NCBI GenBank assembly: GCA_017460955.1
Contig: JAFTZY010000057.1
Span: 1-51,790 of the forward strand
DNA length: 51,790 nucleotides
Direction of reading: 5' to 3'
Origin: Oscillospiraceae bacterium
GTDB taxonomy: Bacteria; Bacillota; Clostridia; Oscillospirales; Ruminococcaceae
Below, one piece after another: positions 24,253 through 46,360 of the stretch; positions within the stretch are counted from its first letter, which is position 1; each line of letters begins with the position of its first letter. The notes beneath the pieces were generated by a model. It worked only from the letters and a program-made list of their open reading frames with translations, was not told the DNA's origin and ran no database searches. Both the position numbers and the translations under genes were made by a program.

Positions 24253-24329
24253 GTGGGTATAGCGTAGCTGGTTAACGCGTCAGTTTGTGGCACTGAAGAC
24301 CATCGGTTCGAATCCGATTATCCACCCCA
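24253..24329 (+). tRNA. tRNA-His (anticodon GTG)
   Basis: Acceptor arm GTGGGTA pairs with TATCCAC (one G-U). The anticodon stem TCAGT/ACTGA holds loop TTGTGGC with anticodon GTG. The T arm GGTTCGAATCC is standard. The discriminator base is C and CCA is encoded (24327-24329). A G at 24252 gives the extra G-1 specific to histidine tRNA. It stands alone with its own promoter and terminator. Confidence 0.96.
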
Positions 24330-40715: not shown

Positions 40716-41609
40716 TTATCTGTGATCCGGATCCGGTCCGGACGCTGTATTTCGCAACAATGCTTCGAGTACACCGACGCACCCGTCCTCCGTGATGATC
40801 TCGGAGGGCACCTCGAATCCCGCCTGCCGCAGCTCCCAGATGAGCTCGGTCACCTGCGGGACATCCAGCCCGAGGGCCTTCATCTCCTCCACGCGGGAAA
40901 AGACCTTCTCCGGCGTATCGTCGAGCACGATCCTTCCGTCGTCGATGACCACCACGCGGTCGGCCTGCGCCGCCTCCTCCATATCATGGGTGATGAGCAC
41001 GATGGTGATCCCCTGCTCGCGGTTGAGCCGGTGGATGGTCTCGAGGACCTCCTGCCGTCCCTGCGGATCGAGCATGGCAGTCGGCTCATCGAGGACGATG
41101 CAGTCGGGCTGCATGGCGATCACGCCGGCGATGGCCACGCGCTGCTTCTGCCCGCCCGAGAGCTGGGAGGGCGCATGGCTGCGGTACTCGTACATATGTA
41201 CGGCACGCAGGGCATCATCGACCCGGCGGCGGATCTCCTCGGGCGGCACACCGAGATTTTCCGGTGCGAACGCCACATCCTCCTCCACGATCGTGGCAAC
41301 GATCTGGTTATCTGGATTCTGGAACACCATCCCTGCCTTCTGCCGCACGGCAAAGAGATTGGCCTCATCGGCCGTATCGAGCCCGTCCACGAGGACCCGC
41401 CCCTCCTCCGGCAGAAGAATGGCATTGATATGCTTGGCAAGGGTGGATTTCCCGCTGCCGTTGTGCCCAAGGACCGCCGTGAAGCTGCCCCTTTGCACCC
41501 GGAGCGTCACATCCTTCAGGATCGGCTCGCTTTTTACGGGGTTCCCCTCGTCATCCTCACTGTCAGGATACCGGAACACGATATGCTGCACATCGATCAT
41601 ATCACTCAT
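40716..41609 (-). CDS. ecfA1: ECF transporter ATPase EcfA1
   Basis: About 297 residues from the ATG at 41609 ([16 protein letters not shown]), inside the last codons of the methyltransferase-like gene (8-base overlap). Walker A is [10 protein letters not shown]-loop [19 protein letters not shown], signature LSGGQKQR, Walker [14 protein letters not shown]. The Q-loop sequence with adjacent Asn/Gln is typical of EcfA1. It is followed by ecfA2 and ecfT in the standard order. Confidence 0.94.
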
Positions 41610-42492
41610 AGAAGCGTTCACCTGCCTCCTCCCGGCACCAGACGGCCGTCGAGCCGCACGGCAGACACATGCCGCTTTGCTCAACGGGCAGGCCGATCTC
41701 ATCGAAATAGACATGTCCCCCGAAGCGCTTTGTCAGCAGACTGTCAAGGATATAGCCCATGACGGACGGGGACAGTCCCGTGGTATAGCTGTTGATGAGG
41801 AAGAACAGGGGCTCGTCGCTGAGCACCTGTGCGCAGCTCTTCACAAGGTCGTACACACAGTTCTCCAGCTTCCAGACCTCACCGCCCGGTCCCCTGCCGT
41901 AGCTGGGGGGATCCATGATGATCGCATCGTACCGGCGCTCCCGGCGGATCTCCCGAAGGGTGAATTTCTCGCAGTCATCGACGATCCAGCGGATGGGCTT
42001 GTCGGAAAGCCCGGACAGTGCGGCATTTTCCCGCGCCCACTGCACCATGCCCTTTGAGGCATCTACATGGCACACCGAGGCGCCCGCATTGGCACACGCA
42101 AGGGTCGCTCCGCCCGTGTAGGCAAAGAGATTGAGCACGCTCACCGGCTTTCCCGCACGGCGGATGAGCCCATCCATGAAATCCCAGTTGACCGCCTGCT
42201 CCGGGAACAGTCCGGTATGCTTGAAGCCCGTCGGCCGGATCTGAAAGGTCAGATCCCCGTAGGGCAGCTGCCAGGACGCGGGGAGCTTGGCATGGAACTC
42301 CCAGCTGCCGCCGCCGCTCTGGCTGCGGTGATAATGCGCATCCGGCTTTGTCCAGAGCGCATAGGTCTTCTTGGTTTTCCAGAGGACCTGGGGATCGGGA
42401 CGGATGAGGCTCACGCCGTTCCAGATCTCCAGCTTCTCCCCGTCGGAGGCATCCACCACCCGGTAGGCTTCCCAATTCTTTGCTGCTCGCAC
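41602..42492 (-). CDS. SAM-dependent methyltransferase, RlmI/RlmK-like (rRNA type)
   Basis: About 296 residues. GTG 42492 ([21 protein letters not shown]) is chosen because AAGGAGG lies nine bases upstream; the longer frame from a TTG would start upstream of that site. The Rossmann core shows [20 protein letters not shown] (motif I), [15 protein letters not shown], and the catalytic DPPSYGRG motif typical of N-methyltransferases. The N-terminal PUA domain of E. coli RlmI is absent. Substrate is probably 23S rRNA, by family only. Confidence 0.85.
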
Positions 42493-42522
42493 TGACTGCG
42501 ACCTCCTTATCGGCAAGGGAGC

Positions 42523-43875
42523 TTATTCACCGACACGCTCCCTGATCTTATCGGATATTTCCATGGCAATGGCGTTGATCTGGTTGAAATCCCGGCCCTC
42601 GATCATCACACGGATGAGCGGCTCGGTGTAGCTCTCGCGCACAAGGATCCGTCCGTTGTCGCCAAGCTCCTCCTCACGGGCGTCGATCAGGCCCGTGATG
42701 ACGTCGTCATTCTTCCAGTATTCGCGCTGCTCCTCGGGGATCTTCACATTGATCATCACCTGCGGGAAGCGCTGCATGACCCTGGCAAGCTCACTCATGG
42801 TGCCGCCGCTCTCGCGCAGCGCCTCGAGCACCTTGAGTCCCGAGAGCTGCCCGTCCCCGGTGGTGGCAAGGTCCAGAAACAGGATATGCCCGTTCTGCTC
42901 CCCGCCCAGCACAAAGCCGCCGTCGAGCATCTTCTCGAGCACATACCGATCCCCCACATTCGCCGTCACCCGGCGGATCTGATGGGCTCTGGCAAAATAG
43001 GTAAAGCCCAGGTTCGACATCACCGTTACGACAACGGCACTGTGCCGGAGCTTGTGCTTTTGCTGATAGGCTCTGGCACAGATGGCGATGAGCTTATCGC
43101 CGTCCACGAGCTCCCCGGTCTCGTCCACCATCAGGCAGCGGTCTGCATCGCCGTCAAAGGCAAGTCCGGCATCGCAGCCGTGGGAGACGACATAATCCAT
43201 CAGATGCTCGATGTGCATCGAGCCGCAGTCCACATTGATATTAAAGCCGTCGGGTGCAGCATGGATGAGCTCCACGCTCGCTCCGAGGCGCGTCAGAAGC
43301 TGCTTTGCGGTATGGACGGCACAGCCGTTGGCGCAGTCCACCGCAAGGCGCATCCCGTCGAGCCGGACGCTGATGCATTCCTCAAGATGGGCAAGATACC
43401 GCCCGACCGCATCGGGCAGACGGCGCATGGTGCCGAGCTCCGAGCCGGACACGGAACGGATGCGGTCGGGCCAGTCGAGGATGAGGGCCTCGAGCTCGGC
43501 CTCCATATCGTCATGGAGCCGGTAGCCGTCGCTCCCGAAGATCTTGATGCCGTTGTATTCCACGCTGTTGTGGGCGGTGGAGATCATCACGCCGCCGTCG
43601 GCATCGGGAAGGCTCGCAAACCAGGCAACAGCCGATACGGGCAGTGCTCCGATCAGGCGGACATCCCCGCCGGCGGAGCAGATGCCCGCACACAATGCAG
43701 CCTCCAGCACGTCCGAGGAGATCCGCGTATCCTTCCCGACGATCACCGTGGGGCGGGACCCGGAATGGGCACGCATGACAACAGCGACCGCACGTCCGAT
43801 CTGGAGCGTCAGCTCCGCCGTCAGCTCCGTGACGGCCATGCCGCGCACACCGTCCATGCCGAATAATCTACCCAT
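42523..43875 (-). CDS. glmM: Phosphoglucosamine mutase-like protein lacking the catalytic serine
   Basis: A 450-residue four-domain hexose-phosphate mutase of GlmM length and order; GlmM converts glucosamine-6-P to glucosamine-1-P for UDP-GlcNAc. ATG 43875 follows GAGGAG at eight bases. The metal loop DGDADR (241-246) and sugar loop GGEQNGH (324-330) are present. However, the active-site loop, normally ISASHNP, reads ISTAHNS (98-104), so the phosphorylated Ser is Ala101. The N-terminal FGTDGVRG is FGMDGVRG, and the phosphate loop RxSGTEP is RESYTEP (Tyr416 for Gly). It may be an inactive or altered paralogue, or a mutase using another residue. The true GlmM, if separate, is outside the window. 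Confidence 0.85.
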   Translation of the reverse strand: MGRLFGMDGVRGMAVTELTAELTLQIGRAVAVVMRAHSGSRPTVIVGKDTRISSDVLEAALCAGICSAGGDVRLIGALPVSAVAWFASLPDADGGVMISTAHNSVEYNGIKIFGSDGYRLHDDMEAELEALILDWPDRIRSVSGSELGTMRRLPDAVGRYLAHLEECISVRLDGMRLAVDCANGCAVHTAKQLLTRLGASVELIHAAPDGFNINVDCGSMHIEHLMDYVVSHGCDAGLAFDGDADRCLMVDETGELVDGDKLIAICARAYQQKHKLRHSAVVVTVMSNLGFTYFARAHQIRRVTANVGDRYVLEKMLDGGFVLGGEQNGHILFLDLATTGDGQLSGLKVLEALRESGGTMSELARVMQRFPQVMINVKIPEEQREYWKNDDVITGLIDAREEELGDNGRILVRESYTEPLIRVMIEGRDFNQINAIAMEISDKIRERVGE

Positions 43876-43911
43876 TCGCCTCACTCCTCTTTTTCAACAG
43901 GCAACGCACTG

Positions 43912-44976
43912 TCATTCCTGCGTCAGCAAAAGCTGTCCGCTCTCCGGCGGCACATCCTGCCGCACGGGGTATCCCAGATGCTCATATGCAAGCCTTGTCG
44001 CACAGCGTCCCCGCGGGGTCCGCGACAGAAAGCCGAGCTGCATCAGGAACGGCTCACACACATCCTCGAGCGTCACTGCCTCCTCACCGAGGGCAGCGGC
44101 AAGCGTCTCGAGTCCCACGGGGCCGCCGTCATAGCCCCGGATGATCATATCCAGCATCCGCCGGTCATTGCTGTCCAGACCGAGATTGTCGATCTCCAGC
44201 CGGTCAAGGGACGTCCGGGCGATCTCCTCGGTGATCTGTCCGTCACCGATGACATCCGCAAAGTCCCGCACCCGTTTGAGCAGGCGGTTGGCGATACGGG
44301 GCGTTCCGCGGGAGCGTCCGGCAAGCTCGAGGGCGCCGTCCCTCGTGCAGGGGATGCCCAGGATCTGGCTCGAGCGCCGGATGATGTCCGAGAGCTGCTC
44401 GGGGGTGTACAGCTCAAGCCGCTGCACGATACCGAAGCGGTCACGCAGCGGTGCGGAGAGCTGGCCGGCACGGGTCGTCGCCCCCACCAGCGTAAATTCC
44501 GGCAGGTCCACACGCAGGGACCTTGCCGAGGGACCCTTGCCGACGATGATGTCGATCGCATGGTCCTCGAGTGCCGGATACAGGATCTCCTCCACGGCAC
44601 GGCTCAGGCGGTGGATCTCGTCGATGAAGAGCACATCCCCAGGGGAGAGATTGGTAAGGATCGCTGCCAGATCCCCCGGCCGCTCGATCGCAGGACCCGT
44701 GGTGATGCGCAGGTTGACGCCCATTTCCCGGGCAATGATGCCGGAGAGCGTCGTCTTGCCGAGCCCGGGCGGGCCATAGAGCAGCACATGGTCAAGAGCC
44801 CCCTCCCGGCGCTTGGCGGCCTCGATATAGATGGCAAGGTTCTCCTTGACCTTGTCCTGTCCGATGTATTCGCTGAGGGACAGCGGCCGCAGTCCCCGCT
44901 CGAGCGCCAGATCCTCCTCGGACTCCTGTGTGGAAACAAGGCGGTTGTCCAGTGTGAATTCGCCGGTCTCAATCAT
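43912..44976 (-). CDS. ruvB: Holliday junction branch-migration helicase RuvB
   Basis: A 354-residue AAA+ motor: [14 protein letters not shown], Walker A GPPGLGKT, Walker [12 protein letters not shown], sensor [19 protein letters not shown]-terminal winged helix ending in [10 protein letters not shown]. With RuvA it drives branch migration; RuvC cuts. Both partners lie upstream in the same run, with sseB between ruvA and ruvB. An AGGAGC site precedes the ATG. Confidence 0.97.
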
Positions 44977-45757: not shown

Positions 45758-46360
45758 TTACTGTTTCATACGGCCCATTTCCCGCAGGGTCAGGCGGATG
45801 AGCTCCTCAGCGGAGGCGGCTTCATCGAGCTTTGCCAGGACCGGTGCGACCTCCTCCTGCCGGTAGCCGAGCACACACAGGGCGGCAAGCGCCTCCCCGA
45901 AGTGGTCCTCCGCCGGCACGGACGGCACTGCGCCGCCGCTCTCGAGCACGGGGTTGGTCTTGGCAAGCTTGTCCTTGAGATCCACCACGATACGCTCGGC
46001 CGATTTCTTTCCCACGCCTTTGACACGGGTCAGGGCGGTGATGTCCCCGGACGCAACGAGCAGGGCAAAGCGCCCCGGCGTCAGATCCGAGAGAATGGCA
46101 AGCGCGGCCTTGGGGCCCACGCCGGATACGGTGATGAGCAGCTCAAAGCAGTACAGCTCCTCCCGGTCGGAAAACCCGAAGAGCATGACCGCATCCTCCC
46201 GCACGGCCATATGCGTATACAGCCGCACCTCACTGCCGATGCTGCCGATGGCTGTGAGCGTGGTCTGTGTCGTGTGGCAGGCATAGCCCACGCCGGCACA
46301 TTCCACAACGGCAAGTCCCGGCTCGGTATGGATGAGCGTTCCTGCGACACTGTAGATCAT
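45758..46360 (-). CDS. ruvA: Holliday junction-binding protein RuvA
   Basis: A 200-residue protein with the OB-fold start MIYSVAGTL, the tandem helix-hairpin-helix motifs (LLITVSGVGPKAALAIL and LTRVKGVGKKSAERIVVDL), and a C-terminal domain that contacts RuvB (EALAALCVLGYRQEEV). A GGAGGAAAC site precedes the ATG. It follows ruvC by 15 bases. Confidence 0.97.
   Translation of the reverse strand: MIYSVAGTLIHTEPGLAVVECAGVGYACHTTQTTLTAIGSIGSEVRLYTHMAVREDAVMLFGFSDREELYCFELLITVSGVGPKAALAILSDLTPGRFALLVASGDITALTRVKGVGKKSAERIVVDLKDKLAKTNPVLESGGAVPSVPAEDHFGEALAALCVLGYRQEEVAPVLAKLDEAASAEELIRLTLREMGRMKQ

Follow-up and report, generated by a model that had tools for sequence, protein, structure and literature searches.

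Peptidoglycan synthesis in Bacillus subtilis depends on GlmM as an essential enzyme, and authors who did not succeed in substituting another mutase for it lean towards a second function of GlmM that is essential too, as far as the accessible part of their study goes (PMC6797236). The effect of replacing the catalytic serine has been described for related mutases: in the accessible part of PMC6096347, the equivalent Ser-to-Ala exchange left A. fumigatus AGM1 with no detectable activity, human AGM1 lost its activity with either Ala or Thr at the serine, and Ser108Ala of PaPMM/PGM showed some residual activity. In the literature that we searched, we found no report of bacterial GlmM pseudoenzymes.

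The window analysed here is the whole 51,790-nt stretch of contig JAFTZY010000057.1 from an Oscillospiraceae bacterium (assembly GCA_017460955.1), in which the original prediction had singled out a GlmM-like gene with alanine in place of the catalytic phosphoserine. The gene occupies positions 42523..43875 (minus strand) and starts from an ATG, at 43875, that AGGAG precedes; the in-frame open reading frame (ORF) extends to a GTG at 43884 (42523-43884, minus strand, 453 codons). Its product scored 502.5 bits against TIGR01455, the GlmM equivalog model (curated cut-off 447.55), and contained all four PGM_PMM Pfam domains above cut-off, which confirms its assignment as GlmM-like. The frame is open and full length, consistent with the earlier statement that the protein has not simply decayed. 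Upstream lies ruvB (43912..44976, minus strand, identified by Pfam and synteny) and downstream a SAM-dependent methyltransferase gene (41602..42516, minus strand, Pfam PF10672 and synteny); ruvA (45758..46360, minus strand, Pfam) completes the locus. This arrangement, ruvAB-A-methyltransferase, is the family's usual locus for the GlmM that we call type A, of which the window gene is a paralogue with a substituted active site. The window also contains a single tRNA-His (GTG anticodon; 24253-24329, plus strand), its sole tRNA and its sole Rfam match at the gathering score.

Loops and motifs of the window protein are called here by the names that we take to be customary. Their roles agree with those given in the accessible parts of PMC7761743 and PMC6096347. 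The window protein departs from three GlmM motifs, namely the serine of S-x-S-H-N, the sugar loop GExSG and RxSGTEP. At the catalytic phosphoserine position it has an Ala codon, GCC (43573..43575, minus strand; Ala101 from the ATG, residue 104 of P0001), and reads ISTAHNS where relatives have ISASHNS, so that the predicted replacement is real. Comparison with genus-mates likewise verified the FGMDGVRG and RESYTEP variants noted before, which correspond to T10M in loop 0 (43855..43857, minus strand) and G419Y in the phosphate loop (42628..42630, minus strand), and the metal loop is intact as described (DGDADRC, with DxDxD present). The sugar loop, also described as intact, is not: comparison with type A copies revealed GGEQNGH instead of GGEQSGH (S331N; 42892..42894, minus strand). 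This change is common to the window copy and its genus-mates G001A, G033A, G023A and G007A; residue 331 is Ser in 36/38 type A copies from genomes without the second GlmM described below (type B) and Asn in several genus-mates that hold it.

Four changes, T10M, A103T, S104A and G419Y, are private to the window copy in comparison with G001A, G033A and G023A. From G001A to the window copy the codons changed ACG-ATG, GCC-ACC, TCC-GCC and GGC-TAC, and G001A itself is identical to G033A and to G023A across 52 loop positions (0/52 differences). The base changes number five, spread over these four loop codons, and one sequencing error is insufficient to explain the whole set. The window copy retains His105, the three Asp residues, Lys114, Arg14, Arg249 and Arg416. 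Ser occupies residue 104 of P0001 in all 38 type A copies without B and in 34/34 type B copies with a letter there; it is also present in 18/18 other copies of the window genus, which makes the Ser-to-Ala change private to the window species. TAHNS had been proposed as a possible clade trait, but it occurred in the window copy alone among the extracted proteins, the nearest motif being ITAAHNS in G362A, from another genus. The idea that neighbouring Ser99 or Thr100 carries the phosphate instead gains no support from relatives and is still conceivable for the window protein itself. Because the catalytic Ser is lost, mutase activity is unlikely in the window species; of the options first offered, an inactive, non-catalytic protein is the best reading. 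That an essential catalytic residue has been lost is judged partly from the AGM1 Ser-to-Ala mutants in the accessible part of PMC6096347.

The window gene is not the only glmM of its genome, a case that had been raised for its consequences for cell wall synthesis. The genome, a 2.48 Mb draft assembly of 84 contigs that is 90.78% complete, contains four matches to PF02878: C33, which is the window gene, C49, a protein named PGM2-like by eye, and the contig-end pieces C51 and C13. C51 spans 74 codons and has FGTDGFRG; C13 spans 374 codons with ISASHNP, GGEESGH and RESGTEP, so that the recommended whole-genome search for a second glmM with ISASHNP was successful. The two pieces align to residues 4-72 and 94-433 of the window protein, and we infer that they are parts of a single canonical GlmM, with approximately 20 residues lost at the break. 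In a tree of 96 proteins, this type B grouped with GlmM of Coriobacteria and Peptoniphilaceae on a long branch (SH-aLRT 100), and type A copies fell among the family's other GlmM, with many weak forks. One genome (G024; draft, 5% contamination) carries two type B copies, L166 and L167, with 97% identity, which may reflect mixed strains or a true duplication.

A search of 396 family genomes, for which a completeness of at least 85% was requested, located type B at 96 places in 90 genomes with scores above 600 bits, the next best match reaching 402 bits. Type A was sought in the 82 B-holding genomes outside the window genus, 78 of them newly searched and four previously available. Erosion of A was scored by counting changes at 44 active-site positions, which were picked from known motifs and do not vary among 35 type B copies; columns 13 and 313, which differ between the types, and column 51, which varies in A, were excluded, and the partial A copies G005 and G013 were left out of the counts. 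Without B, 35/38 type A copies had no change, and G129A had 1, G011A 2 and G016A 5; the last two come from window-genus members with genomes 85% and 65% complete, in which B was not found. With B (n = 55), 45 copies had 3-30 changes, five had 1-2 and five had none. At least five changes were present in 39/44 copies outside the window genus and at least three in 6/11 inside it, where the window copy has 5. The catalytic Ser was kept in 38/55 copies with B versus 38/38 without, the replacements being Ala (7), Pro (6), Gly (2), Thr (1) and Leu (1). For His the figures were 35/55 versus 37/38, and for the third metal-loop Asp 16/55 (lost in 39/55) versus 38/38; a metal ligand is the commonest change in eroded A, with Ser or His changed less frequently. 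Three eroded relatives scanned against TIGR01455 all scored under 447.55 (G024A, 447.1; G156A, 429.6; G026A, 383.9).

In a tree built without the loop columns, the eroded copies formed five groups (genus g1; g44; g114, g120 and g130; g89 and g95; g68), and the eroded label required 8-9 changes depending on the threshold. A phylogenetic independent-pairs test of A erosion against B was not significant, with a median p of 0.125-0.25 by threshold: at threshold 3, a mean of 3.8 of 7 pairs went the same way and 0 the opposite way (median p 0.125), and at thresholds 2 and 4 the median p was 0.25, with the direction as expected. In five genomes, G221, G310 and G372 (all g105), G349 (g125) and G280 (g128), A is unchanged at the 44 positions despite the presence of B, which makes them useful controls for the effect of redundancy alone.

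Eroded copies were found largely in the usual locus. Both ruvB and the methyltransferase gene adjoined eroded A in 39/43 loci, one of them in two and neither in two; the corresponding numbers for intact A were 30/36, two and four, 'neither' denoting absence within the stretch fetched. Among 30 ruvB loci of the window genus, A was present in 15, absent in 14, where ruvB adjoins the methyltransferase gene, and cut off in one. A tree of RuvB and SseB, in which several forks are weakly supported, placed intact-A species without B at the base of the window genus, with B arising under a later branch where A is missing repeatedly. Outside the window genus, A was found in 44/82 B-holders and not found in 38/82; the genomes are mostly draft assemblies in which 'not found', for A or for B, could reflect incompleteness, and broken A remnants scoring under the search cut-off would escape detection. 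Every sampled B-holder of four genera had an eroded A (g44, 10/10; g68, 8/8; g120, 8/8; g114, 6/6; 32/32 altogether), and A was found in no sampled B-holder of g78 (0/6), g118 (0/7) or g54 (0/4). In two g44 genomes an ORF of 173-174 aa lies between ruvB and eroded A (L260, 1845-2366, plus strand; L246, 1650-2174, plus strand). It has a GCEVI-VYNAL motif and, by eye only, a papain/C39-like look; a Pfam-A search at E 0.001 returned no match for it.

All 43 eroded A copies studied are open reading frames of 430-505 aa. Codon-model omega was 0.066 in g120, 0.084 in g68, 0.184 in g114, 0.055 and 0.102 in two g44 groups and 0.034 in g95, indicating that six eroded groups (0.034-0.184) retain the protein under purifying selection; intact A groups gave 0.054, 0.044 and 0.060 and B gave 0.064, so that g114 (0.184) and g44b (0.102) lie above the intact groups. 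Nine window-genus A copies accompanied by B gave a pooled omega of 0.081, the pool including the window copy and leaving out the two most eroded copies. For the window copy the estimate consists of pairwise NG86 values alone (0.11-0.24), which are saturated at large dS. Simulated random substitution produced a stop at a median of 0.018-0.025 changes per site, and 0.08-0.10 changes per site were enough to do so in 95% of trials. Among eroded sister pairs for which the dS estimate is usable, it is 0.38 or higher, in tables of hand-picked pairs of which some have a saturated dS or no estimate. Among the columns conserved at 95% or more in 36 intact A copies, retention in eroded copies was 0.65 for the 48 active-site columns and 0.79 for the 80 others (p = 4.6e-4 in a Mann-Whitney test that takes the columns to be independent). 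Residues specific to A, not shared with B, were kept less often in eroded copies than shared ones (0.68 versus 0.79), so no A-specific conserved surface stands out clearly, and we set this candidate aside.

Differences per site in loops versus the rest of the protein amounted to 0.175 versus 0.262 in 16 eroded sister pairs, compared with 0.012 versus 0.271 in 13 intact pairs and 0.015 versus 0.177 in 10 B pairs. Loop/rest omega values suggest at least two outcomes of erosion, one in which the loops are released from their constraint and one in which they are altered but maintained. The loops are no longer special in g114 (0.200/0.180) and g44 (0.058/0.049 and 0.101/0.100), partly relaxed in g120 (0.019/0.074) and g68 (0.030/0.093), and changed yet frozen in g95 (0.002/0.046); the controls were 0.001/0.045 and 0.002/0.064 for intact A and 0.006/0.071 for B. 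The nine pooled window-genus copies gave 0.004/0.088, a strong loop constraint which suggests that the A of many genus-mates may still act or bind sugar. In g95 (L193, L244, L248 and L249), the active site has changed to D248G/S, R249K, D312S and P422S and is frozen within the genus, and two of the four loci have neither ruvB nor the methyltransferase gene nearby; a new ligand or reaction, not decay, is possible there. As a general account, heavily eroded A as a new enzyme is disfavoured in three groups, where the loops vary between sister species as freely as the rest, but may hold in g95 and in part in g120 and g68.

Taken together, we think it probable, with considerable room for doubt, that a foreign-type GlmM (B) took over the mutase step and that the old A persisted as a pseudoenzyme with a role outside catalysis; the window copy would represent an early stage. 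An ancestor of the part of the genus to which the window species belongs would have acquired type B, which retained its active-site motifs and is most likely now the producer of GlcN-1-P. Freed from catalysis, A would then have lost active-site residues, or the entire gene, in the window lineage and several others, with dead copies held as full-length proteins by purifying selection in several genera. The window protein would thus most likely be a GlmM pseudoenzyme, or nearly so; against this reading stands the fact that it has just 5 changes and keeps His105, the three Asp, Lys114 and the three Arg residues named above. The retained role would be exerted at the protein level and could have been present in GlmM-A beforehand or acquired later, with GlmM-B itself or another cell-wall protein possibly serving as the partner. 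A broader proposal, to which we give slightly less than an even chance, is that selection in this family acts on a GlmM function that depends on the folded protein and not on its chemistry, and that several B lineages kept a dead A for this function. Where A is missing, in 38/82 B-holders outside the window genus, either such a role would be dispensable or the assembly is incomplete.

Alternatively, A of the window genus may be an enzyme with an altered substrate, whose sugar loop changed first (S331N) after B arrived and which now acts on another sugar phosphate, with Ser102, Thr103 or a bisphosphate cofactor as the phosphate carrier in the window species. Such an enzyme would account for the near-frozen loops of the window-genus copies that coexist with B (0/52 for both G001A/G033A and G001A/G023A; omega 0.004) and for the likewise frozen g95 active site (0.002), and PaPMM/PGM Ser108Ala offers a precedent for residual activity (accessible part of PMC6096347). 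However, the window copy has in addition T10M and a phosphate-loop change, G419Y, three groups from other genera show loops that vary as much as the remainder of the protein, 39/55 A copies accompanied by B lack the third metal Asp, and the AGM1 Ser-to-Ala and human AGM1 Ser-to-Thr enzymes are dead according to the same partial source; we consider this alternative unlikely. Slow decay, with A redundant beside B and heading to loss and the window copy merely unbroken so far, would explain why A is repeatedly absent within the window genus, why the end branch of the window copy is long (0.43) and why G024A/G026A show some relaxation (omega 0.154 versus 0.05 for the B pieces that accompany them). 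It appears quite unlikely given 43 open eroded copies with omega 0.03-0.18 over long times and the 32/32 retention in four genera, a count in which broken remnants under the search cut-off would be missed.

We also considered an obvious candidate role, regulation of CdaA, with A retained because it partners or inhibits this c-di-AMP cyclase. A DAC-domain gene is present in 34/38 window-genus genomes, and B. subtilis GlmM binds and inhibits CdaA (accessible part of PMC8573169). Yet the B. subtilis residues D151, E154 and D195, contacts of CdaA Arg126, are Arg, Asp and Arg in the window protein and show no conservation among A copies, neither the 36 intact nor the 43 eroded ones; B copies keep the first in 35/35 and not the other two. 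This test is weak, since Ala mutants at these residues hardly changed binding in the accessible part of PMC8573169; the partnership is unsupported by the contact residues, and we regard it as very unlikely. An artefact at the serine codon, conceivable in an 84-contig draft assembly, has a negligible probability in the face of five base changes over four loop codons in an ORF that is otherwise open and conserved, and of erosion in many other assemblies. For the pseudoenzyme reading that we favour, the unconserved CdaA contacts and the lower retention of A-specific columns limit our commitment to a non-catalytic role at the protein level.

If the pseudoenzyme reading is correct, these proteins form a natural series of separation-of-function GlmM variants, in which the window copy represents a stage shortly after the loss of Ser. 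With dozens of GlmM proteins that seem dead and are accompanied by an intact GlmM, the binding partners that remain can be compared, and the question of a second GlmM function thereby becomes directly testable. For annotation there is a warning, in that a protein lacking the catalytic serine, the window copy, still clears the GlmM cut-off. Inhibition of CdaA/DacA in Firmicutes provides a precedent for a GlmM role exerted by protein contact (accessible part of PMC8573169); type A differs from such GlmM in lacking conservation at the residues known to contact CdaA. The window protein resembles GlmM, the bacterial phosphoglucosamine mutase (TIGR01455; solved structures 3pdk, 7ojr and 6gyz), over its whole length, sharing the four domains, an above-cut-off score and the family's usual locus; in contrast to GlmM, it has the Ser-to-Ala change and substitutions in loops 0, 3 and 4, and its genome holds pieces of a canonical GlmM. 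PGM5 (aciculin), a vertebrate phosphoglucomutase paralogue of the same superfamily, is likewise an inactive paralogue beside an active enzyme; according to the accessible part of PMC7761743, this animal protein, in the herring case, retains both substrate binding and the serine. In type A, by comparison, it is the old copy that erodes, beside a foreign type.
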